A stretch of DNA of 45,105 bases from Candidatus Brocadia sapporoensis (GCF_001753675.2 NZ_MJUW02000077.1:1-45105); one strand, 5' to 3'. Counted from the stretch's first letter, positions 12,423-24,266 are shown. The notes: generated by a model from the letters alone, not told the origin. Translations and numbers: made by a program.

Positions 12423-12484
12423 GTTTAACAATCGCTTGAACGGAGACTCGCTCTTGGGCGTCAATCTCCAGCAACTTGTTAGAT
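12423..12484 (-). mobile_element. attC-like recombination site closing the toxin-antitoxin cassette
   Basis: Read on the minus strand, the site opens with R'' ATCTAAC (RYYYAAC) and closes with R' GTTAAAC (GTTRRRY). Between them TAACAA/TTGTTA, GCT/AGC and GGAGA/TCTCC can pair, with unpaired extrahelical bases, as in an attC hairpin. The toxin stop codon (12479-12481) lies inside R''. Its R'' is complementary at 6 of 7 positions to the first bases of the same cassette (G/TTGGAT at 12995-12989), as expected for a gene cassette that has existed as a circle. Confidence 0.65.
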
Positions 12485-12775
12485 TTTTTCTTTATCGAAC
12501 ATACGTTTTCCATGTATTACGGTAAGAATATGAATCTCATTTGCTTTGATTTCATAAACGATACGATATTGGAAAACAAATAATTCTCGAATAGATTCAT
12601 CGCCAACCTCTGGCACAACTCTGCCTATTTTGGGGTGTTGGATTAGCGACTGAGGAGCTTCAAATATTTTTTGAATTGTAGATTCAGCATAAAACTCAGA
12701 ATCTCTTGCGATAAACTCCCCAATTGCCTCTATATCTTCTAAAGCTTCAGGTGACCAAATTATTTTGTAATCCAT
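12479..12775 (-). CDS. ParE/RelE-superfamily toxin
   Basis: A 98-residue protein of the ParE/RelE toxin fold, which poisons gyrase or cuts ribosome-bound mRNA depending on the branch. The sequence has the ParE-type order: IIWSPEALEDIEAIGEFIARDS helices, HPKIGRVVPEVGDESIREL, the FQYRIVYEI strand and a closing VIHGKRMFD strand. The E(S)IREL...YRIVYEI block favours ParE over RelE. It overlaps its antitoxin gene by 16 bp, a sign of translational coupling. It is cargo of an integron-type cassette, where such modules are thought to stabilise the array. Confidence 0.85.
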   Translation of the reverse strand: MDYKIIWSPEALEDIEAIGEFIARDSEFYAESTIQKIFEAPQSLIQHPKIGRVVPEVGDESIRELFVFQYRIVYEIKANEIHILTVIHGKRMFDKEKI

Positions 12776-12948
12776 TTTGAAAGTCGTACTTTGGCTTCCT
12801 CGTAGGAAATACCTTTACCGTTTTTTATGGATTCTTGGCCCTTCCTGATCTTTTCTAGCACATAAAGATGGTATTGGATGTCTTCCAGTGTGGCATCTTC
12901 CGGCAAGTGATGAATCATTTTTGTAATGTTGTCTTTTAAAGTACTCAT
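12760..12948 (-). CDS. Antitoxin partner of the ParE-type toxin
   Basis: A 62-residue protein starting at ATG 12948 (MSTLKDNITKMIHHLPEDAT). An upstream in-frame start at 13017 would run through the attC site and is unlikely. It resembles the small helical antitoxins paired with ParE/RelE toxins, with the usual LP(E/D)DAT(L)EDIQYHLYVLEKI first half and a K-rich C-terminal arm containing SYEEAKVRLSKW. I see no classical ribbon-helix-helix, so DNA binding is inferred from the palindrome just upstream of its start (12957-12976). The toxin follows with a 16-bp overlap. Confidence 0.75.
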   Translation of the reverse strand: MSTLKDNITKMIHHLPEDATLEDIQYHLYVLEKIRKGQESIKNGKGISYEEAKVRLSKWITK

Positions 12949-12956
12949 AACAATAT

Positions 12957-12976
12957 TATAGGAAATTTTTCCTATA
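12957..12976. promoter_or_regulatory. Probable toxin-antitoxin operator palindrome
   Basis: TATAGGAAA and TTTCCTATA form nine-base perfect arms around TT, ending 8 bp before the antitoxin ATG. A palindrome at the promoter and ribosome-binding position is the usual autoregulatory operator of type II toxin-antitoxin operons. It lies within the short leader of the cassette, so the cassette would carry its own regulation. Confidence 0.55.
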
Positions 12977-12988
12977 GAATGAAGTAAA

Positions 12989-13064
12989 ATCCAACGCTGC
13001 GCATAACCGGCTGGCAATGAAGCGCAGCGAAATTGCCAGTCCGCGTTGATGCGGTTGTTAGCGG
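12989..13064 (-). mobile_element. attC-like recombination site closing the TIR cassette
   Basis: On the minus strand the site runs from R'' CGCTAAC (13064-13058) to R' GTTGGAT (12995-12989). The centre forms a strong hairpin: CTGGCAAT pairs with ATTGCCAG, flanked by GCGG/CCGG-type and CGC/GCG pairs with bulges. The TIR stop codon (13058-13060) lies inside R''. R'' departs from the RYYYAAC consensus in its first two bases but is exactly complementary to the start of its own cassette (GTTAGCG at 14075-14069), which is a stronger test than the consensus. Confidence 0.75.
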
Positions 13065-14038
13065 TTCCCTTTTGGTTGCAAAGCCTTTCTTAACTCTCCG
13101 ATGCCCTCACTCCACTTTGATTCATCTGAGAAATCTATGTATTTCAGTCTTCTAATGAGGTTATCGATAGGTTCGGGGAAACTCTCTTCTTTTGTAAGCA
13201 CTACTGGAATTATGTTTTTACCATCAGCGAAACCCATAAATTGGGACACCTCGAAGTTGACCCAGCTTGACTCTGTTGAATGTCTGGAAATCACAAGAAG
13301 CAAGTAGTCTGTGTCGCAGGAACGAAGGCTGTTCGTAATCGTCTGCTGAATATCAGCACCGGCAAGAATCTCATTCTCGTCAATCCAGAATCGAATATCT
13401 GAAGACAGTTCATGAATGAGCTTTTTAACAAATGCTTTGTCTTTGCTGGAGTGGCTAATAAAGACTGTAGATTTTGGAAGTTGTCTTGTTATTGTTTCTT
13501 TGAATTGATGATTCACCCGGTCATGCCAAATTAGATTTTCAGATAAAAAAGTCTCGGACAGTTTTTGTGCAAGATGGTGCGTCCGTTTTACTTCGATGCA
13601 AGCATTGATAGCTTCTTTCAGTTTATGTGGGAATCTGTCAAAGGTGCTACAAGCGAAACCTGCAAAAAACTCAGGATAATAGTGATAGGTTGACCAGCCA
13701 CCCGGTTTGGGAACGCCACCACCTTCAAGGCTAAAAAATATAAAAGTTGGGTCGTTCTTGAGTGGTATTCCCATTGTCTTAAATTCATTTCGCATATATC
13801 GCCAGTCTTCGTCCGGAATGATGTTCCCTTCATAAATGAGTGGCGTGAATATGTGAAAGTTCTTACCGCTGAATGATGATATCCTGTCTTTGTTATTTTT
13901 AAAGTAATCCACATACTCATTGTCGAGTGACGAGAAAAAAGCAATCATGAACCGAGAATTTTCCGGCTTCAATTGCTGTTCATTCATCAAACGGACTACT
14001 TCCTCAATCCACTTCTCAGTCGGATGTATGTACCACAC
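13058..14038 (-). CDS. TIR-domain protein with unrecognised N-terminal half
   Basis: The C-terminal part (about 190-305) is a TIR domain: TVFISHSSKDKAFVKKL as strand A and box 1, WIDENEILAGADI as the BB-loop region, DYLLLVISRHSTESSWVNFEV with the probable catalytic glutamate E263, then IIPVVL. Bacterial TIR domains of this type often cleave NAD+ and serve as effectors in phage defence. Whether this one does is inference. Residues 1-180 are unknown, rich in aromatic residues (SLEGGGVPKPGGWSTYHYYPEFFAGF). The start is GTG at 14038, chosen because AAGGAG lies 7 nt upstream. The stop is inside the attC R'' box. Cargo of cassette 1. Confidence 0.85.
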   Translation of the reverse strand: MWYIHPTEKWIEEVVRLMNEQQLKPENSRFMIAFFSSLDNEYVDYFKNNKDRISSFSGKNFHIFTPLIYEGNIIPDEDWRYMRNEFKTMGIPLKNDPTFIFFSLEGGGVPKPGGWSTYHYYPEFFAGFACSTFDRFPHKLKEAINACIEVKRTHHLAQKLSETFLSENLIWHDRVNHQFKETITRQLPKSTVFISHSSKDKAFVKKLIHELSSDIRFWIDENEILAGADIQQTITNSLRSCDTDYLLLVISRHSTESSWVNFEVSQFMGFADGKNIIPVVLTKEESFPEPIDNLIRRLKYIDFSDESKWSEGIGELRKALQPKGNR

Positions 14039-14106: not shown

Positions 14107-14564
14107 AAAAAGGTACAACGTTTGTCAACTAAAAAGGCATTTAAATTGACCTATGAAGTCTTTATAAATATAATTTCTACCTCGTTAGTAACACAGATTG
14201 AGTGATAACAAGAAATAGGATAAGTATTCATGCTCAATATCCCTGCCGCTCTTTTTACAAAATAGAGCATAACACTAAGTGAAAAATTGGTTCCGGTTTC
14301 CATTCATAATAACAATCCCAGATGTGTAGCCCGGTTCAACTCTATCTTTACCAAATAAATTGGGTATCAGATCTTGTTGTCCCTTAGGTTATTTCAAAGA
14401 CAAATTCGACACTTTTAGCAAAGATGTGAACAAAATTAACCCTGTCAGAGTTTGAAACTCTGACAGGGTTGAAGTACAAATTTTGCGATTCCTATTTTGT
14501 CTTTTCTAATTTGTTTGGGCTATGAGACATTTAACCGTAAAGCCCTTCATAACACGGCGTTCCT
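14107..14564. other. Gene-free stretch between TIR gene and barrel gene
   Basis: No gene seen on either strand. The only notable structure is the palindrome at 14438-14470. The rest is AT-rich with frequent stops. Confidence 0.5.
14438..14470. repeat. Perfect 33-bp palindromic repeat, possible terminator
   Basis: AACCCTGTCAGAGTTT and its exact complement flank a single G. It lies 95 bp past the stop of the minus-strand barrel gene, and on that strand it is followed by TTAATTTTGTT, so it could end that transcript. A second member of the family, sharing AATTAAC before and GTTGAAG after, is at 40705-40736, which marks it as a dispersed repeat. Confidence 0.65.
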
Positions 14565-15611
14565 TTAAAATGCCCAAACAATAGCTGCCATTGCTCTCCA
14601 GTCCACTACCTGTTGAACACCTCTGGCATGCTGGTAAAGAGGTTGTTGAAATTTCAGATCAATGCTCCCGCCCGTTTTTGGTATCCTTATCTGAAGAGAG
14701 GGTGTTATTGAAACAGAGGTAATACCTGTGTTGTCAGGGTTGTCTATAAGAGATACATCTGGTCTTGAATATTTACCGTCGTGATCTTTATCCTGTCCAG
14801 CATGAAATAGGTTGAGCTCCAGTCCGGGATTTAGATAACCGATTATCGGGTATCTGGCGACGAGATCCAGAGACACCTTGTCGCCAAATTCATAACCCTC
14901 ATCTCCTTCTGTGGTTACATGATACATAAGATTGGTCTGAAAGACCACAGGGGACAAGGTATGCATGTAGTTGACAAGAAAAATAGGATCCCAGGAACCT
15001 GTACCGGGCTGCATCATGGCGTGGACAAGATGGCCAGAATCTGTCCCTTCGTCGTTTTTACCTGTTGGAAGTTTTAGTCCCATGCCGGCAGTGAGCTTCT
15101 TTGTTGGAAAATCAGAATTATCCGTGTAGACTTTGTAAAGACCCATAAGAGTCATATCTCCAAACCCCTCGACGGCATCCATCTCCATCTTCATCTTCAT
15201 ATCCATGCCCATTGGACTCCTCATTACCATCTTCATGTCCATATCGTTGATAACATAGGGAATTGTAGCCATGAATTGGAGTCTCTTGGTTGCAGAGTAT
15301 GTCCCCAGCAGGGTATATTTTTGCATAATCATTCGTGTCGGGACAGAAAAACTTTTTTCCTCTTTTGGCATTTTGGGCCACGTTGAAGCAACATCATCCA
15401 ATACTGAATTAGGGCTTCTGCTATGGCTGCCCTCCCGTATCGTCTCCATATTGGAATACTCGTATTGAAGTGAGAGACCAAAATTTGTTGCCGTGATGAC
15501 ATTTGAGGTGGTTGCCTCGCAAAGCGATCTTGAGAGGCAACATTCGCCATGTGCGTAAGCAACGCCGGAAGTAAAAAAGAGGACTAAAAAAAATGTACCA
15601 AAGATTCTCAT
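14565..15611 (-). CDS. Outer-membrane barrel-type protein with Met-rich loop, probably metal-related
   Basis: The chosen start (ATG 15611, GAGGAAAT upstream) gives 348 residues with a clean signal peptide cut after AYA-20. The longer frame from 15683 adds a tail unlike a secreted protein. The mature part alternates amphipathic strands and ends in an aromatic residue (IVWAF), typical of outer-membrane beta barrels. It resembles the putative transporters grouped with phenol-degradation MetA proteins. Residues 124-144 hold nine methionines (DMDMKMVM, then GMDMKMKMEM), a likely soft-metal site such as Cu(I). The mature N-terminus has a HGECC motif. The gene lies downstream of a YcnI-like His-rich protein and a Cys-rich protein on the same strand, which supports copper or similar metal handling. 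Confidence 0.7.
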   Translation of the reverse strand: MRIFGTFFLVLFFTSGVAYAHGECCLSRSLCEATTSNVITATNFGLSLQYEYSNMETIREGSHSRSPNSVLDDVASTWPKMPKEEKSFSVPTRMIMQKYTLLGTYSATKRLQFMATIPYVINDMDMKMVMRSPMGMDMKMKMEMDAVEGFGDMTLMGLYKVYTDNSDFPTKKLTAGMGLKLPTGKNDEGTDSGHLVHAMMQPGTGSWDPIFLVNYMHTLSPVVFQTNLMYHVTTEGDEGYEFGDKVSLDLVARYPIIGYLNPGLELNLFHAGQDKDHDGKYSRPDVSLIDNPDNTGITSVSITPSLQIRIPKTGGSIDLKFQQPLYQHARGVQQVVDWRAMAAIVWAF

Positions 15612-16141
15612 AATATTTCCTCGGAAAATTGAATAACGTATAATCAAAAAAGTGTAATTTGCGCCAGAGTCGATCCCATGCACCCCATTGCAGAAGGAGG
15701 CTTAGTTTGCGATAAATATTCTCACATTTTAGCAAAAATGTTTTTTGGTGATAATGAGGCGCACCTTGCCACTCCGGTCTTTTCCGGTCCATTCTGGTTC
15801 GGGGATTTGTTTAATTAGACATTTGGCAACTTTGTATCTGTAGAGCGATAAGCCTCGTCGCTCTACAACCGTAGCTTTGAAATTCCTTAACATTAAATCA
15901 GGCCTGCAGCTAATGGTATTTGGTTAACCTTATCCCTAGCCTCCCCGTAAACAGGGAGGGAGACAGACTTCCCTTCGTTTACGGGAGGATCAGGAGGGTA
16001 ATTAAAAATTTAATGCATTAAATGCAGAATTTCCCCAGCGAACGGTCAATATGCAAAAGATGACTGTCCTTTTCCTGTCTGCATTCAGGTTACAAGGAAA
16101 ACACCGAACTACCATAAACTATAGGGAACGCAGGAACGGCT
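15612..16141. other. Intergenic region with two hairpin repeats
   Basis: No gene. A perfect 10-bp stem, TGTAGAGCGA (15839-15848) with TCGCTCTACA (15858-15867), and a longer imperfect inverted repeat CTCCCCGTAAAC (15941-15952) with GTTTACGGGAG (15977-15987) are present. Neither has a T-run, so they look like interspersed repeats rather than terminators, though either could end the transcript of the gene at 16142-17008. Confidence 0.55.
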
Positions 16142-17008
16142 TTAGTGGTTATGGCCGCCGTGGTGGCCTCCATGATCTCCATGGTCTCCGTGATTACCAT
16201 TTGCAGGCCAATATCCGGCAATCGGCAGAAATTTATCGATAGCCTCATCGGAAGGATATACACCAATCTCAAATCCTTTGTCACACCCCTCCGGTAGAGG
16301 ATTCTTTTCCAGGTCTCGTACGACTCTGAGGTTTGGCCAAAAATCCACCGATACGATGTCAGCGTCGTCGAACTTTTCCGTTAACCGACCTAACCATATA
16401 TCCGCGCGATCGTCATCATTCTTGTTGCTGGATTTGGTGCAATAGTTAGCAATAGCAATGTACACGGTCAGCGCCGTTGCGCAGGAATCTGATTTAAACG
16501 TGGGAAATGATGCGCTCCATGGAATGACTCCCAGCAAACCGTCCTGTAGTTTACCATTGGTAAAAACAAAGGCCCTGACGTCTTCTGTTAATTCTGAACC
16601 ATGTGAAATAAATGCCGGAACAGGCCCTGTCAACGTCTTGATTATTTTGAAGAGACTGTTTACTGCAGGTTTCGGAGTCATTACGGGATTACCTACGATA
16701 TGATCCTGAAGATTTACGGATTCTTTTGTATCCATGCGTTCAGCTATAGAGTCCTCACCATTGGGAAAAACAACGCTCTGCGCCCGTACAGGCTGATTTT
16801 TTGTGCCGTGAGCGTGGACCGCCGTTGCCCCGCATCCATGGGGTATACTAAACCAATTGAAACCACTCGTTCCCTCAAGCTCATCACGAGAGCTGTAATT
16901 CGTAGGAGTATTTTTCGACATAACTGTTGTGTGTGCTACAGCGTTTTCTGATATAATCAGTGTCGCAAAAATTGTGACAACGATAAGATGTTTTGAAAAT
17001 TTTACCAT
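16142..17008 (-). CDS. YcnI/DUF1775-like periplasmic metal-binding protein with His-rich tail
   Basis: Starting at ATG 17008 (GGAGGAAATAT upstream) gives 288 residues with a signal peptide that ends AVA before H26, so the mature protein begins His-Thr-Thr-Val. In the YcnI family the mature N-terminal histidine binds copper, and the following IPHGCGATAVHAHG segment (55-68) matches the family's PHGC motif. The last 20 residues are built of HGDHGG units with at least seven histidines. The middle is not recognised. It lies between the Cys-rich gene and the Met-rich barrel on the same strand. Copper is the favoured ligand, but nickel, cobalt or zinc binding by the His tail is possible. Confidence 0.7.
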   Translation of the reverse strand: MVKFSKHLIVVTIFATLIISENAVAHTTVMSKNTPTNYSSRDELEGTSGFNWFSIPHGCGATAVHAHGTKNQPVRAQSVVFPNGEDSIAERMDTKESVNLQDHIVGNPVMTPKPAVNSLFKIIKTLTGPVPAFISHGSELTEDVRAFVFTNGKLQDGLLGVIPWSASFPTFKSDSCATALTVYIAIANYCTKSSNKNDDDRADIWLGRLTEKFDDADIVSVDFWPNLRVVRDLEKNPLPEGCDKGFEIGVYPSDEAIDKFLPIAGYWPANGNHGDHGDHGGHHGGHNH

Positions 17009-17337
17009 ATGATATTTCCTCCAACTCTTAAAAATGATGTAGTTATTACGTATTTTCACGCTCGTCATGGGCAAGATAAGCATAGAAGATGGCTGATGGG
17101 AAACAAAAACATACAATATGATATCCCTGTGAACAGGCCAATGCCGGGTTGCCGGTAGTATCCTGCCTATGTATCGGATCTATTGATTAGCAATGTTCTA
17201 GTAAACGCCTAAAATAAGTTGACGGGTAATAGACCTCAAGGGCGGCAATAAAACGACCCCAATATAGGGATTGTTTCAGTGCGAAATATCCTCATGGCAA
17301 CTTTCTTTCGTCGTTTACGAGAATATGAGATTGGACT
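17009..17337. other. Intergenic region, nothing recognised
   Basis: About 330 bp between two minus-strand genes of the metal cluster. No ORF with family resemblance and no strong hairpin. It probably holds the promoter of the YcnI-like gene, since the spacing is too large for simple cotranscription to be assumed. Confidence 0.4.
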
Positions 17338-17784
17338 TTATACGTGACAACGTGGAGGTTTTTCGGGAGGTGATACCATGATTTCACAGAGGCGAGTCAG
17401 GGTATCGCTGGTAAGAAAACATAAAAATGGTATTTGAGGAATTCCACAACACTCCTCTGGTATGTATTTAAACTCGGCATATATACCAGTAATTACATCA
17501 CTTCCTGATTTACATCTGAGACTGCCTATGAATGATTGAAAACTGTTTTTTTGTTTGTTTACGCCAGATTGAGACATTAACAGATTTCCGTGTGAAGAAC
17601 AACAGCAATGCGCCTTGCAATCAGCCGCAGATTTGCAACCGCATGCATGGTTTTTACAGGGAAACTCATCCGGCTCTATTGATGTATTAAAGGAAATACC
17701 GTTGTTAAACAAGGCAAGGCTGAGAAGAAAGAGGATTTGAATAGAGGCAAGTACCTTATTTACGTTACTTATAGTTGTCCGCAT
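17338..17784 (-). CDS. Cys-rich small exported or membrane-anchored protein
   Basis: A 148-residue protein with an N-terminal hydrophobic segment (about 11-30) that may be a signal peptide or anchor. Next comes a dense cysteine patch at 43-62 (PCKNHACGC, then DCKAHCCC) with two histidines, giving seven cysteines in 20 residues. A second pair, ECC, and further single cysteines follow near the C-terminus. This looks like a soft-metal chelating motif. I do not recognise a named family. It is the first gene of the minus-strand cluster with the His-rich and Met-rich proteins and diverges from the RND efflux operon. Confidence 0.6.
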   Translation of the reverse strand: MRTTISNVNKVLASIQILFLLSLALFNNGISFNTSIEPDEFPCKNHACGCKSAADCKAHCCCSSHGNLLMSQSGVNKQKNSFQSFIGSLRCKSGSDVITGIYAEFKYIPEECCGIPQIPFLCFLTSDTLTRLCEIMVSPPEKPPRCHV

Positions 17785-18420
17785 TTTTCCTCATCCATAG
17801 CATTACCCATAAAATTCAATTATAAACCAGGAAGTTACTTTGGAAAATAGTCGTTTAAAAAGATACCGTAAAAGAACGACATTCGCAAAAGAAATGCCCT
17901 ATACTAAAATAATGTACCACCCCTTACGTAAGGTGTTTCTATTTCTTTAATAAAAAGATTATTATGGATAGACTTTCCTGAAAAAACTTATCCTATCTGA
18001 ATTTCACGGTTGATATATATCATGCAATCCTGGAATAAGTCAAAGAGTTTTTGATTTATCATTGTATAGTGAACGCAGGGTGTCAGTTTGTCGAAGCGGT
18101 ACACATGATTATAGCCAGGTTGATAGACGGCGTGAGAAGGCATGTTGCTGAGTACTATGTTCGGGCAGAAAGTGATTTTTATCTTTGACTTGGGGTATTT
18201 TTTGTGTTGAAAACACCGTGCAAGGGAGGAGGGTATGTCCCCGTCCCGATTTTCGCTATACGAAAATCATTTGCAGAATTTAGACTTTACTGGTATTCTT
18301 ACTAATCCAATTTCATGGTATACAAGGAACATTATTCTAGCACTTTCTGTTAATACATTACTGTACTGTGCTTACGGAAAGGGTAATTTTCTATCACATT
18401 TTTTATTGCTAATGATCACT
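17785..18420. other. Divergent promoter region between metal cluster and RND operon
   Basis: No gene on either strand that I trust. The region must hold the promoters of both divergent units. A perfect 12-bp palindrome CCTTACGTAAGG lies at 17922-17933 and is a candidate operator. An ATG at 18235 with a strong GGAGGAGGG just upstream opens the frame of the adaptor protein 62 codons early (see that entry). No regulator gene is nearby. Confidence 0.4.
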
Positions 18421-19563
18421 ATGAAAAACAAATTCATGTATTTGAGTGTCTGGACAGTTTTATTCATAAGCGCATGTTCATCGGATAAAAAAAGTAGCGT
18501 TAAGCAGGAAAAATTCCCTGTTACCAATCCTATCGTGATGGATATGCCCTATACGCATGATTATGTAGCGCACATACAGTCTTTGCAGCATGTAGAGCTA
18601 AGGACCAGGGTTAAAGGATATATCGAAAAAATTCATGTTGACGAAGGTGATAGCGTAAAAGACGGACAAATCCTTTTTAGTATTAGCCGCAAGGAATATG
18701 AAGTGAATTTATTAAAAACGAAGGCAATGCAGAAAAGTGCCATTGCAGATGCAAAGACTGCTGAACTGGATTTGCAAAATGTAAAAATACTGGTAGAAAA
18801 AAACATTGTCTCAAAAACAGCGCTTGAAATGGCTCAGGCTAAACTGGATGCATTTCGTGCAAAAGTTGATGAAGCGCAATCTCAGGTAACAAGCGCTAAA
18901 TTAAATCTTTCTTACACAGTAATAAAAGCGCCATTTGATGGAATTATTGACAGAATTCCCAATAAGGTTGGAAGTTTAGTCGATGAAGGAACTCTGTTGA
19001 CTACCATTTCAGATAATACAAGGGTATTTGCATATTTCAACGTACCGGAAAAAGAATATTTAGAATTTACCACGATCATGGACTCAGGAAAGGAGAATGA
19101 TGTGGTATTTGTTTTAGCCAATAATCAAATTCATAAGTATAAAGGATGTATTGAAACCGTTGCAGGAAAAATTGACAAAACCACCGGAAACATAGCTTTC
19201 AGGGCTTCTTTTCCTAATCCGGACCTTCTTTTGAAACACGGTTCCAGCGGAGAAGTCAGAATAATAAAGGAAGAAAGAGGCGCCTTGATAATTCCGCAAA
19301 AAGCTACCTTTGAAATTCAGGATAAAATATATGTATTTACGGTGGATTCTGACAATATAGTAAAAATGAGAAGCGTTGTTCCCAAACTCCGTGTTCCCCA
19401 ATTATATGTAATTGAATCCGGGTTATCTTCCAATGATAGAATTGTTTATGAAGGCATTCAGTTGGTGAAAGAGGGAGATAAGATCATTCCTGAAATGGTT
19501 CCTATGAAACAAATTCTGACGGAACAATCAAAATCTCAAACCATGTTTACAGTTCAAAATTAA
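18421..19563 (+). CDS. RND efflux periplasmic adaptor (membrane fusion lipoprotein)
   Basis: The periplasmic adaptor links the inner-membrane pump to the outer-membrane channel. From ATG 18421 the protein begins MKNKFMYLSVWTVLF with lipobox ISAC, so it is a lipoprotein as in AcrA/MexA. The lipoyl-like half (VELRTRVKGYIEKIHVDEGDSV), a coiled-coil hairpin (about 85-150) and the second half-motif KAPFDGIIDRIPNKVGSLV follow. An upstream in-frame ATG at 18235 has a better ribosome binding site but adds 62 residues before the lipobox, which is not credible for export. The pump gene follows by 10 bp. Confidence 0.88.
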   Translation: MKNKFMYLSVWTVLFISACSSDKKSSVKQEKFPVTNPIVMDMPYTHDYVAHIQSLQHVELRTRVKGYIEKIHVDEGDSVKDGQILFSISRKEYEVNLLKTKAMQKSAIADAKTAELDLQNVKILVEKNIVSKTALEMAQAKLDAFRAKVDEAQSQVTSAKLNLSYTVIKAPFDGIIDRIPNKVGSLVDEGTLLTTISDNTRVFAYFNVPEKEYLEFTTIMDSGKENDVVFVLANNQIHKYKGCIETVAGKIDKTTGNIAFRASFPNPDLLLKHGSSGEVRIIKEERGALIIPQKATFEIQDKIYVFTVDSDNIVKMRSVVPKLRVPQLYVIESGLSSNDRIVYEGIQLVKEGDKIIPEMVPMKQILTEQSKSQTMFTVQN

Positions 19564-19573
19564 AAAAAACATA

Positions 19574-22500
19574 ATGAGCTCTAAATTTATCCATAGACCT
19601 ATTTTATCCATAGTCCTGTCTTTAATCATCACCTTGTTAGGGGTGTTGTCTTTAGCCAAATTACCAAAGGAGCAATTTCCCAGTATAGCCCCGCCAGTGG
19701 TAAATGTTTCTGTTAAGTTTACTGGCGCCAATGCAGAAACTGTAACAAAAGCCGTTATTGTGCCTTTGGAACGTGCTATCAATGGTGTCCCGGGAATGAA
19801 ATATATGTCGTCGTTGGCGGGAAATGATGGTATGGGAATAGTGCAAATCATTTTTAAAGTGGGTACCGATCCCGACATAGCCGCAGTTAATGTTCAAAAC
19901 AGAGTAGGTACCGTAGTGGACGAACTCCCTGCGGAGGTAATAAAAAACGGGGTAAAAATTGCCAAGGAAGAGAGATCTATGCTGATGTATTTAGATATCT
20001 TCAGCATTAATAACGCGTTAGAGGAAGAATTCCTGTACAATTTTACGGATATTAACATACTGCCGGAATTAAAAAGAATTAATGGCGTTAGTTATGCAGC
20101 TATATTGGGAGCCAAGGAATACGCAATGCGTATCTGGTTAAAACCCGATAAAATGCTTGCCTACAATATTTCAACAAATGATGTACTGAACGCATTACGA
20201 GAACAAAATGTAGAAGCTGCACCGGGTACTGTTGGAGAAAGTTCGGACAAATCAGCACAAGCATTACAATACGTGATAAAATACACGGGAAGATACAACA
20301 CCGAAGAACAGTATGAAAATATACCGGTAAAATCGAACTCTGACGGAGCTATACTTCGCATAAAAGATATCGCTGACGTGGAGTTTAGCGCAGTTTATTT
20401 TGGTGTAGAGTCTAGACTAAATGGCAGACCTACAGCTTCAATTATGCTGAAGCAGTTGCCAGGCTCTAATGCCAGCGAGGTAATCAGTGAAGTGAAAAGT
20501 CGAATGGCTGAAATTAAAGAATCCTCATTCGTTGAAGGTATGGATTATGCGATCAGTTATGATATCTCGCGTTTTTTGGATGCTTCTGTTCATAAGGTAT
20601 TAAAAACCCTCATTGAAGCGTTTTTACTTGTATCATTCGTGATATTTATTTTTCTGCAGGATTGGCGTTCAACACTCATTCCCGCTATTGCTGTACCGGT
20701 TTCCTTGATTGGCACCCTCTTTTTCATGCAGATATTAGGCTTCTCTTTAAACCTGATTACCCTTTTTGCATTAGTTCTTGCTATAGGTATTGTGGTAGAT
20801 AACGCCATAGTAGTGGTGGAGGCGGTGCATGCAAAAATGGAGCACTCGAATATTGGAGCAAAGGAAGCTACCGAACAAGCAATGAAGGAAATAAGTGGCG
20901 CCATCATTGCAATTACCCTGGTAATGTCTGCAGTTTTTGTTCCAACCTCTTTTATGACAGGTCCTGTTGGCGTTTTTTATAAACAGTTCTCCATCACCAT
21001 AGCCATATCGATTGTTCTTTCAGGTATTGGTGCGTTAACGCTTACTCCGGCGCTCTGTGCCTTGTTTTTAAAAAATACACACGCCGGGCATAAAAAGAAA
21101 AATATTTTAGATCGTTTTTTTACAGGCTTTAATAATTGGTATGGAAATCTTTCTGCAAAGTATCAAAAGCTGCTCGGCCTCATTGTAAACCGCAAGGTCA
21201 TCACATTCTCAATCCTGTTACTTTTTTGCGCAGGAACGGGTATTTTCGGGAAACTCCTGCCTTCAGGGTTTATTCCCAACGAAGACCAGGGGACATTCTA
21301 CGCCAGTATCGCTACTCCTCCCGGCTCAACATTAGAAAGAACTAAAGAAGTAGTAAATGAAGTGCAAAAAGTATGCGAAGAGATAGAAACTATAGCGTCC
21401 GTTTCTTCCTTGGCAGGAATAAATATTTTGTCCGATGGAACGGGCGCTACTTACGGCACTTGTCTAATTAACTTAAAAGATTGGGACGACCGGAAGGAAT
21501 CGGTCAATGACATCATTGAACACGTTGCCGAAAAAACGAAGCACATTAAAGATGCAAAAATTGAATTCTTCCCTCCGCCAGCCGTGCCGGGCTATGGGAA
21601 TGCCAGTGGTTTTGAATTGAGATTATTGGATAGGACAGGCGTCGGTGATTTTAAAAAAATGGAAACGGTGGTCAATCAATTCGTTAAAGATTTAAAAGAC
21701 CGGCCTGAGATAGCAAGGGCTTTTACTATTTTTGATGCAAGCTACCCGCAATATATGATTCATGTTGATACTGATAAGGCTGCTCAAAAAGGAGTAACAG
21801 TTAATAATGCGATGAGCACATTACAAACCTTATTAGGAAGTGAGTATGCTACAAACTTCATTCGTTTTGGTCAAATGTACAAGGTTATGGTACAAGCATT
21901 ACCAGAATACCGGGCTAAGCCGGATGATATTCTTAAGTTGTATGTGGAAAACGATGAAAATAAAATGGTGCCCTTATCTGCGTTCATAACTATGGAACGC
22001 ATATATGGGATGGATCAGATTACCCGTTACAATATGTATCAATCTGCTGAGTTGAACGGTGAAGCGGCCAGCGGATACAGCAGTGGGAGCGCTATCGCAG
22101 CCATTCAGGAAGTAGCCAAAGAAAGACTACCGAAAGGTTACAGCATAGATTGGGCGGGTATGACCCGTGATGAAATCCTGGCTGGCAATGAAGCAATATC
22201 TATTTTTATTATCTGCTTGGTATTTGTGTATCTGTTGTTATCTGCGCAGTATGAAAGTTTTCTCCTGCCCATGCCCGTTATTCTTTCTTTGCCAACCGGA
22301 ATTTTCGGGGCATTTTTACTTCTGATGCTGATGGGTTTAGAAAACAATGTGTATGCGCAGGTAGCTATGATTATGCTTATCGGCTTACTGGGGAAAAACG
22401 CCATTCTGATTGTTGAGTTTGCTTCCTTAAAACACCGGGAAGGGCGAACACCCATGCAAGCCGCCATTGAAGGGGCAACCGTGAGGTTACGGCCGATTCT

Positions 22501-22729
22501 CATGACCTCTTTTGCTTTTATTGCCGGATTGATTCCATTAATGCTTGCATCCGGTGCCGGCGCTGTCGGTAACAGAACAATTGGCGCAGCGGCCGCAGGG
22601 GGCATGCTATTCGGAACTATATTTGGAGTAATTATTATTCCGGGACTGTATGTTGTTTTTGCAACTCTTGCAGAACTGTTTTCGAAGAAAAAGATCAAAG
22701 AGGAAATAGCATTAACCGAGGCAATATAA
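19574..22729 (+). CDS. RND efflux pump, inner-membrane HAE1-type transporter
   Basis: A 1051-residue proton-driven pump of the AcrB/MexB class with the duplicated 6-TM plus periplasmic-loop plan. Family marks include FIHRPILSIVLSLIITLLG at the N-terminus, GFIPNEDQGTFYASI in the middle, and the proton-relay lysine K941 in LLGKNAILIVEF. In TM4 the usual aspartate pair DD appears as D409-N410 (GIVVDNAIVVVEA), so one relay aspartate is replaced. The HAE1 type exports drugs, solvents or lipids rather than metal ions, so the neighbouring metal cluster does not by itself make this a metal pump. Confidence 0.92.
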   Translation: MSSKFIHRPILSIVLSLIITLLGVLSLAKLPKEQFPSIAPPVVNVSVKFTGANAETVTKAVIVPLERAINGVPGMKYMSSLAGNDGMGIVQIIFKVGTDPDIAAVNVQNRVGTVVDELPAEVIKNGVKIAKEERSMLMYLDIFSINNALEEEFLYNFTDINILPELKRINGVSYAAILGAKEYAMRIWLKPDKMLAYNISTNDVLNALREQNVEAAPGTVGESSDKSAQALQYVIKYTGRYNTEEQYENIPVKSNSDGAILRIKDIADVEFSAVYFGVESRLNGRPTASIMLKQLPGSNASEVISEVKSRMAEIKESSFVEGMDYAISYDISRFLDASVHKVLKTLIEAFLLVSFVIFIFLQDWRSTLIPAIAVPVSLIGTLFFMQILGFSLNLITLFALVLAIGIVVDNAIVVVEAVHAKMEHSNIGAKEATEQAMKEISGAIIAITLVMSAVFVPTSFMTGPVGVFYKQFSITIAISIVLSGIGALTLTPALCALFLKNTHAGHKKKNILDRFFTGFNNWYGNLSAKYQKLLGLIVNRKVITFSILLLFCAGTGIFGKLLPSGFIPNEDQGTFYASIATPPGSTLERTKEVVNEVQKVCEEIETIASVSSLAGINILSDGTGATYGTCLINLKDWDDRKESVNDIIEHVAEKTKHIKDAKIEFFPPPAVPGYGNASGFELRLLDRTGVGDFKKMETVVNQFVKDLKDRPEIARAFTIFDASYPQYMIHVDTDKAAQKGVTVNNAMSTLQTLLGSEYATNFIRFGQMYKVMVQALPEYRAKPDDILKLYVENDENKMVPLSAFITMERIYGMDQITRYNMYQSAELNGEAASGYSSGSAIAAIQEVAKERLPKGYSIDWAGMTRDEILAGNEAISIFIICLVFVYLLLSAQYESFLLPMPVILSLPTGIFGAFLLLMLMGLENNVYAQVAMIMLIGLLGKNAILIVEFASLKHREGRTPMQAAIEGATVRLRPILMTSFAFIAGLIPLMLASGAGAVGNRTIGAAAAGGMLFGTIFGVIIIPGLYVVFATLAELFSKKKIKEEIALTEAI

Positions 22730-22733
22730 ATCA

Positions 22734-24266
22734 ATGAAGAAATCTGACCTGAATGAATCGGAAAAGACTAGGCTGGAAAGATACGCTTTGATATTGCAAA
22801 AAATATTTTTGCTGGAAATGTTAAAATGTTTTTTGCAGGATGCTAAAAACATACCAGCTTTTGGATTCGTGGCTGCATGCTTGCTTGTGGCAGGTTGTCA
22901 GACAACGAGAAATATTGAGAATGATGTCACAAAACAAATACCGGAAACGTTTGCACACACGAAGGATTCCGTAAATTCTGCAACAATTGTCTGGCGACAA
23001 TTTTTCTCGGATACTACATTAATTGATCTGATCGATATAGCTTTTAAAAACAACCTGGACGTATTGATGACCTTGCAAAAAATTGAAATTGCACGGGCTG
23101 ACCTGCGATTACGTAAAGGGGCTTTGTTTCCTGAAATTTCCGGTGGTGGCTCCGTTTCTCAAAGAAGATTCGGACGTTACACTATGGATGGAGCGGGAAA
23201 CAGGACAACGGATATTACCCCCGGACACACAGTACCCACCGATCTTCCTGATTATCATATCGGTTTACAAACTACATGGGAAATGGATATTTGGGGTAAA
23301 CTCCGCGGCAAGAAGGAAGCTGCATTTGCTCGTTACCTTGGCAGCATCGAAGGAAAAAATCTCGTACTTACTAACTTAATTTCGGAGATAGCGATTACCT
23401 ATTACGAGTTGTTGAGTTTAGACACGGAATTGGAAATTATCGGAGAAACCATCAAGCTGCAGGAAGATGCGATTTCCATCGTTACCACTCAAAAACAAGT
23501 TGCCACAGCTAATGAGTTGGCTGTGCAGCAGTTTGAAGCGCAATTGTTACATTCAAGGGCATTGGAAGTTGAAGTTCTTCAAAGAATTACCGTGAGTGAA
23601 AACAGAATAAATTATTTATTGAGTAGGTTTCCACAACCGGTCAATCGTAAAAAATCAATTCTCACTAAAGAAATTCCTGCTCAGGTAATGATCGGTATTC
23701 CATCCGATTTGTTAGAAAACAGGCCTGATATAAAACAAGCTGAGTATGAGTTGATGGCCACGAAAGCAGATGTAAAATCAGCAAAGAAGGCATTCTATCC
23801 TTCTTTCAACATTACGGGGGCAATGGGATTCCAGGCTTTTAATCCCTCTTTTTTATTTCGATCACCTGAATCAATTGCGTACACAGCAATAGGTAGTTTA
23901 ACTTTTCCATTAATTAACCGGAGCGCGATTCAGGCACAATTTAAAACTGCACAAGCGAAACAGATAGAGGCATTGTACAATTATCAAAAAACCATTATCC
24001 ATGGTTTTATTGAAGTATATAATGAAATGAATAATATTAAGAATCTGGAACGGGCATACAAACTTATAACCAAAAAAGTGGCTGCGTTAACTCAATCTAT
24101 AGAAATATCGTTGGAACTGTTCAAAACCGGCAGGGCAAATTATTTAGAGGTATTAATAGCACAACAAAATGCCCTCCAATCGAAATTAGAATTAGTAAAC
24201 ACCAAACAACAACAATTTAATGCCGGTATAAATATTTATAAGGCACTTGGTGGCGGTTGGAGATAG
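22734..24266 (+). CDS. TolC-family outer-membrane efflux lipoprotein (NodT type)
   Basis: The outer-membrane channel of the tripartite pump. It has two repeated TolC-type halves with VWRQFFSDTTLIDLIDIAFKNNLD near the start and ENRPDIKQAEYELMATKADV in the second half, then a long alpha-barrel helix. A lipobox LLVAGC lies at about residue 55 from ATG 22734. An in-frame ATG at 22818 would place the lipobox at residue 27, a more usual signal length, so the true start may be 22818. It begins 4 bp after the pump stop, so the three genes form one operon. Confidence 0.88.
   Translation: MKKSDLNESEKTRLERYALILQKIFLLEMLKCFLQDAKNIPAFGFVAACLLVAGCQTTRNIENDVTKQIPETFAHTKDSVNSATIVWRQFFSDTTLIDLIDIAFKNNLDVLMTLQKIEIARADLRLRKGALFPEISGGGSVSQRRFGRYTMDGAGNRTTDITPGHTVPTDLPDYHIGLQTTWEMDIWGKLRGKKEAAFARYLGSIEGKNLVLTNLISEIAITYYELLSLDTELEIIGETIKLQEDAISIVTTQKQVATANELAVQQFEAQLLHSRALEVEVLQRITVSENRINYLLSRFPQPVNRKKSILTKEIPAQVMIGIPSDLLENRPDIKQAEYELMATKADVKSAKKAFYPSFNITGAMGFQAFNPSFLFRSPESIAYTAIGSLTFPLINRSAIQAQFKTAQAKQIEALYNYQKTIIHGFIEVYNEMNNIKNLERAYKLITKKVAALTQSIEISLELFKTGRANYLEVLIAQQNALQSKLELVNTKQQQFNAGINIYKALGGGWR

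Follow-up and report, generated by a model that had tools for sequence, protein, structure and literature searches.

Three adjacent minus-strand genes of Candidatus Brocadia sapporoensis encode a small Cys-rich protein, a YcnI-like exported protein and an outer-membrane barrel, each with its own patch of metal ligands, and their arrangement raises the question of what the three do together. The window analysed here is a 45,105-nucleotide stretch (contig C44) of a 2.93-Mb genome of the Brocadiaceae, within the anammox (ammonia-oxidising) Planctomycetota; relatives of this genome include Brocadia pituitae and Kuenenia hertensis. A preliminary description suggested that the three proteins could form a relay for copper from the outer membrane to the periplasm. 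All three genes, with their ligand patches, are present in the window. A relay of three carriers is not, however, the best reading of the system, which we take instead to be a regulated metal-transport operon with a putative nascent-chain sensor. We hold with moderate confidence that the operon is headed by a metal-sensing leader peptide of the CutF/CruR type, which would set expression of the YcnI-like protein and the barrel.

Gene order in the window and in related genomes

The Cys-rich gene comes first (17338..17784, minus strand; 148 aa). A consensus scan placed a weak promoter-like site, TTTCCA-16-TATAAT (17819..17846, minus strand), 5′ of it, the best of nine sites where 9.3 are expected by chance. 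A gap of 329 nt (17009..17337) separates it from the YcnI-like gene (16142..17008, minus strand), which starts at ATG 17008 and encodes 288 aa. After a further 530 nt lies the barrel gene (14565..15611, minus strand; 348 aa from its best start, ATG 15611), and 3′ of this is a strong intrinsic terminator with a 15-bp stem and a T tail (14438..14470, minus strand). Because of the 530-nt gap, co-transcription of the YcnI-like and barrel genes is not certain. The 329-nt gap has a weak hairpin with a T run (17271-17256) and is otherwise unconserved; no conserved RNA structure was visible when leader-to-gene gaps were aligned, and Rfam gave no matches in this region of the window.

The preliminary description had named co-occurrence in other genomes as a check on the trio, and the expectation was borne out. 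We searched 98 relatives for the YcnI-like gene and found it in 13, in 10 of which the Cys protein, YcnI-like and barrel genes are adjacent in the same order on a single strand. The trio is complete in eight of the 13; the barrel is a decayed remnant in G010 and is frameshifted in the assembly of G004. Two of the remaining three genomes (G019 and G030) have loci truncated by contig ends. The third, G036, yielded no leader with the family profile; 65 nt upstream of its YcnI-like gene is a different Cys-rich ORF, NNCCCIGICNCRHDCC ... RPPKKGIRIS, whose ending and position speak for the leader model. Throughout the Brocadiales, the wider constant unit is the Cys protein plus the barrel. The YcnI-like gene is an optional insert between them and is missing from most loci with the pair; in some loci its position is taken by another exported protein, c39 (~220 aa, no Pfam match; L095, L096 and L097). 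The host genome also holds a second copy (L082; G000:C45, 4168-6241), in which a Cys leader accompanies a Met-free PF13557 barrel and a YHS-domain gene.

The Cys-rich protein as a candidate leader peptide

Residues 43-62 of the Cys-rich protein (CKNHACGCKSAADCKAHCCC; 17599..17658, minus strand) do contain the seven Cys in 20 residues that had been reported, out of 13 in the whole protein, and include a CutF-type CxxHC. Composition shuffling reaches this clustering in about 1% of cases; the patch is nonetheless not due to chance, since C43, H46, C48, G49, C50, C56 and C60-C62 are invariant in 29 diverse relatives (alignment A2). Three elements are fixed in the family alignment: an N-terminal hydrophobic segment, judged by eye in the window protein; the patch CxxHxCGC-x5-C-x3-CCC, with the consensus CxxHxCGC…DCxxHCCC; and a C-terminal Pro motif, SPPEKPPR or PPxPPPR. 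The last of these, absent from the preliminary description, is near-invariant as SPPEKPPR and forms a putative ribosome-arrest motif at residues 138-145 (17350..17373, minus strand), three residues before the stop. Its placement is tightly held among the 48 Brocadiales copies, with the last PP 3-5 residues before the stop in 42 and a CCC-to-PP distance of 78-81 residues in 44. PP falls within the last 11 aa of 46 of these leaders, compared with 7 of 358 control ORFs. Codons in the tail vary freely, every Pro using all four and Arg at least five, and so it is the peptide rather than the RNA that is conserved.

A wider search recovered 13 homologues of 130-330 aa from Planctomycetota outside the Brocadiales. 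In 12 of them a PPxPPPR, PPP or SPP tail lies close to the stop, a feature shared by 5 of 233 other ORFs (Fisher 1e-15); the sample is largely, not wholly, independent, because the homologues were picked mainly via the Cys patch but the profile also matched the tail in a few. By sequence, then, the Cys protein is a member of a Planctomycetota-wide family. At one locus (L167, 9629-10311), a Cys-patch ORF and an ORF ending PPEPPPRIS lie in different overlapping frames, reflecting either an assembly error or a frameshift.

What lies downstream of the leaders, after a gap of 100-650 nt, is a gene for an exported or outer-membrane protein, and these belong to unrelated families. They include PF13557 barrels of two types, YcnI-like proteins, siderophore-type receptors (L093 and L105) and the TonB copper receptor TIGR01778 (638 bits in L112 and 695 bits in L113; the gene in L166, at 448 bits, is just under the cut-off). 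In other Planctomycetota the leader is followed by DUF1559 genes and then by PepSY_TM or BamB-like genes. Within the clade of the window copy (11 leaders, support 100/99), the next gene encodes a YcnI-like protein, a Met barrel or a TonB receptor; when a TonB copper receptor was sought in the host genome, only sub-threshold matches were obtained. One conserved leader with changing targets has the look of a cis-acting regulator. We read the Cys protein as a regulatory leader because of its fixed C-terminal Pro motif, the 100-650-nt gap and the unrelated downstream genes; by analogy with known systems it most likely senses metal and acts in cis as a leader peptide, rather than serving as a carrier.

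One of these systems is CutF of Rhodobacter, which is small and exported, carries a CxxHC copper motif and ends PEPEGPPPRL (PMC8456105). Both the motif and the Pro end are required to produce the downstream copper oxidase (PMC8456105, PMC9973294), and the Pro tail alone gave no stalling in LepB fusions (PMC9973294). CutF of R. capsulatus (cutFOG) shares with the window leader its small size, lack of a Pfam domain, CxxHC, a GPPPRL-type Pro motif at the stop and a position upstream of metal genes, and the leader may be exported as well. Five published rules for CutF-like proteins (PMC8456105) were compared; for that of a predicted signal peptide, inspection of the leader shows an N-terminal hydrophobic stretch, and the leader follows the other four: at 148 aa it is shorter than 170 aa, it has no family at E<=1 in Pfam, it carries a CXXXC (C56-KAH-C60, both Cys invariant in A2), and it has the C-terminal PP, as in the 46 of 48 copies above. 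It differs from CutF in having a nine-Cys/His patch where CutF has one CXXXC, in its long gap without the conserved stem-loop of CutF, in its targets, which are outer-membrane channels or receptors and YcnI rather than a copper oxidase, and in its host group, the Planctomycetota.

In Bordetella, the uORF CruR (DUF2946) senses copper. It contains a CXXC and carries RAPP three residues from its C-terminus, and the genes that follow it encode a TonB receptor and a PepSY_TM protein; related operons contain OprC-type receptors (TIGR01778) and YcnI (PMC9426467). Its arrest has been toeprinted, and RAPP uORFs precede YcnI genes (PMC12992588). The earlier statement that no named system has this trio was accordingly too strong, since published CruR and RAPP-uORF operons already contain TonB receptors, YcnI and PepSY_TM (PMC9426467, PMC12992588). 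Compared with CruR of Bordetella pertussis (cruR-bfrG-PepSY_TM), the leader has KPPR/PPPR in place of RAPP, and its Cys motif is richer and nearer the N-terminus; the CruR rule of RAPP 45 aa after CXXC does not describe it, the distance from CCC to PP being ~80 aa. No copy of the leader family matches PF11162 (DUF2946), and membership of DUF2946 via Pfam was rejected on this ground. We file the leader as CutF-like by published rules and CruR-like in mechanism by analogy, in a separate sequence family. The sole PF11162 match, at 20 bits and below the cut-off, was an unrelated ORF of G037 ending RAPPA (L122; G037:C331, ~1294-1800). This ORF, whose full ending is LSRAPPA, has a CxxC and lies directly before a gene whose product is porin-like over a long C-terminal stretch; it is probably a true CruR-type uORF in the same order.

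The YcnI-like protein and the outer-membrane barrel

The label "YcnI-like" proved right at the profile level, but Pfam misses the protein: no match to PF07987 (DUF1775) rose above the Pfam cut-off, and DUF1775 membership by that route was dropped. In hhalign the family aligned with the proteobacterial PHGC-type YcnI (alignment A5; prob 94.6, E 6.8e-8) over the PHGC and GG(K/R)L regions, and gave no match to the Bacillus/Actinobacteria type (A4). A PDB profile search with the family returned nothing real, and the AlphaFold model is poor (pLDDT 47), its fold search being uninformative. In B. subtilis YcnI, the mature N-terminal His and a Trp hold Cu(II) (PMC8424229). The window protein shares both with that protein (7ME6): His26 (16931..16933, minus strand) is the first residue after the signal peptide (AVA|H) and, as had been proposed, forms the mature N-terminus, being invariant in 11 relatives (alignment A1), and W205, also invariant in A1, aligns with the YcnI Trp. 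The Glu ligand position is replaced, as in many proteobacterial YcnI, a branch with which the protein has the PHGC motif in common. The reported His tail was confirmed too, with 7 of 14 His in the last 30 residues; its His-rich segment (residues 272-288; 16145..16195, minus strand) is present in Brocadiaceae and lost in G036. Unlike YcnI, the protein is below the Pfam cut-off, is twice as long, has an extra C-terminal part with the His tail, and has no CopCD/YcnJ partner visible at its locus. On these alignments it is a divergent DUF1775 relative in which the His and Trp ligand positions are kept.

The barrel is assigned to the PF13557/COG4313 type by Pfam (PF13557, 40 bits against a cut-off of 22), by an AlphaFold model that forms a barrel (pLDDT 78.5) and by Foldseek, which matched the model to 4rl8 (E 2.9e-13, TMt 0.67). 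Among solved structures, those nearest to the model are the Pseudomonas putida COG4313 channel (4RL8), whose fold the barrel is predicted to share, and FapF. The Met patch at residues 124-144 (15180..15242, minus strand) is real, although it holds ten Met rather than the nine first counted, a density in 21 residues reached by 0 of 20,000 shuffles. The Met occupy every second residue along a beta-hairpin of strands 111-131 and 137-143 in the model. Where the first strand lies in the membrane, its odd-numbered residues are hydrophobic (L111, F113, A115, I117, Y119, I121) and its even-numbered ones mixed (Q112, T116, N122), and for this reason the even-numbered Met should face the lumen near one mouth; they also share parity with the lumen-side residues of strand beta-3. 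The model thus suggests that the alternating Met probably face the pore of a COG4313-type channel. One barrel type, that of the window, retains this ladder, with 8-11 Met per 21 residues; the type B barrels of the same genomes lack it. Several Brocadia barrels carry an HHH-bearing insert at the hairpin tip beside the ladder.

A model for the operon, its metal and the alternatives

Conservation, gene order, motif position and the predicted barrel fold form the basis of the leader-operon reading. In this model, the first gene would encode a CutF/CruR-type leader peptide that is exported co-translationally and senses metal. The Cys patch on the emerging nascent chain would bind a soft metal, most likely Cu(I), and binding would alter ribosome stalling at the C-terminal SPPEKPPR, setting expression of the genes beyond the 329-nt gap; metal might act in the CruR direction, switching the operon off, or in the CutF direction, switching it on. 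The YcnI-like protein would bind copper in the periplasm via its mature N-terminal His, and the 12-strand COG4313-type channel, its mouth lined by the Met ladder, would pass copper across the outer membrane, in or out. Several observations count against the leader model. The Pro motif differs from RAPP/RGPP, for which arrest is proven, and the Pro tail of CutF did not stall by itself in LepB fusions (PMC9973294). PF11162 does not recognise the family, the aligned downstream gaps show no conserved RNA structure, the YcnI-like protein is poorly modelled, and the 530-nt gap leaves co-transcription with the barrel gene uncertain. Roughly half of the leaders, moreover, are in cobalt/cobalamin or nickel operons, not copper operons.

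Four features lead us to favour copper as the metal, namely the Met ladder, the YcnI relative, the TIGR01778 receptor and the PepSY_TM partners, and the copper theme of the preliminary description is in this respect retained, together with its ligand patches, which are conserved. Cobalt or nickel is the main rival since about half of the family is in cobalamin/CbiQO operons; the leader mechanism would be the same, with the leader adjusting an outer-membrane Co/Ni channel that feeds a CbiMNQO ECF importer and cobalamin synthesis. Within 8 kb of 29 of the 48 leaders are cobalt/cobalamin or nickel genes. The ancestral Brocadiaceae order is grpE-dnaK-cbiB-cbiQ-cbiO-c3-leader-barrel-cobB, in which several genomes show a 4-nt overlap between c3 and the leader; a second locus reads nikR-cbiM-nikL-cbiQ-cbiO-barrel...leader-YcnI-barrel. 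CutF-like proteins upstream of HupE/UreJ likewise suggest Ni/Co versions (PMC9973294). We nevertheless consider this alternative unlikely for the window operon: the four features just named favour copper, the window copy and many members of its clade lie at a distance from cbi genes, and seven of eight loci scanned have no cobalamin riboswitch. The single match in that scan precedes cbiM in L106, and none is near a leader, so that control of the leader-barrel pair by a cobalamin riboswitch was rejected. The c3 product (L084 and other cbi loci) is a ~265-aa Cys-containing, cytosolic-looking protein without a Pfam family, conserved between cbiO and the leader; in L078, L092 and L100, unlike the other cbi loci, c3 directly follows cbiQ and cbiO is missing.

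More tentatively, the two sets of metals may both belong to the family. A large class of metal-sensing arrest peptides might be particular to the Planctomycetota, carrying the non-RAPP motif PPx(K/P)PPR at the stop and controlling outer-membrane metal entry; the anammox paralogues would be tuned to different metals, with a cobalt/cobalamin set and a copper set, the window clade, acting on Met-lined channels that replace the TonB copper receptor. If paralogues do sense different metals, the family is a natural experiment in nascent-chain metal tuning. Nascent-chain metal sensing has been studied mostly in Proteobacteria; the leader-operon model would extend it to a planctomycetal family that spans the phylum and has a different arrest-like motif. 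The model also proposes a Met-lined COG4313-family channel as a metal pore. It is a concrete, testable model of how anammox bacteria may acquire copper-type metals and set their uptake.

Copper detoxification, with the leader and YcnI-like protein acting in resistance and the barrel as an exit channel, seems to us improbable. In its favour, CutF responds to excess copper by inducing a multicopper oxidase, many CutF-like genes stand ahead of RND efflux genes (PMC9973294), and RND efflux genes do lie divergently upstream of the trio (18235-24266, plus strand). Their adaptor is, however, of the multidrug type, neither a copper oxidase nor a P-type ATPase was seen in the vicinity, and the channel lacks a periplasmic duct. 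An RND pump beside the trio was looked for in relatives and not found, and linkage with the divergent pump was rejected for that reason. Slightly less probable still is the relay originally proposed, in which three stable carriers pass copper from the outer membrane to the periplasm: all three N-termini look exported, all three proteins bear metal-ligand patches and the adjacency of their genes is conserved, but the Cys protein is built like a regulatory leader of the CutF/CruR type, its fixed Pro motif and stop spacing and the swapping of its downstream genes are not expected of a carrier, and the YcnI-like gene is absent from most leader-barrel loci.

Two further features lie in and beside the operon. 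An imperfect inverted repeat, CCTCCCGTAAACG...TGTTTACGGGGAGG, in the gap between the YcnI-like and barrel genes (15940-15990, minus strand) occurs once in the window; similar repeats are found in the gaps of L083 and L098, and it has the look of a repeat element of Brocadia. Just past the 3′ end of the operon (12479-14038, minus strand), a ParE-type toxin and a small partner gene stand beside a gene for a protein of 326 aa with a TIR domain at its C-terminus (Pfam TIR_2), possibly a defence-type cassette.
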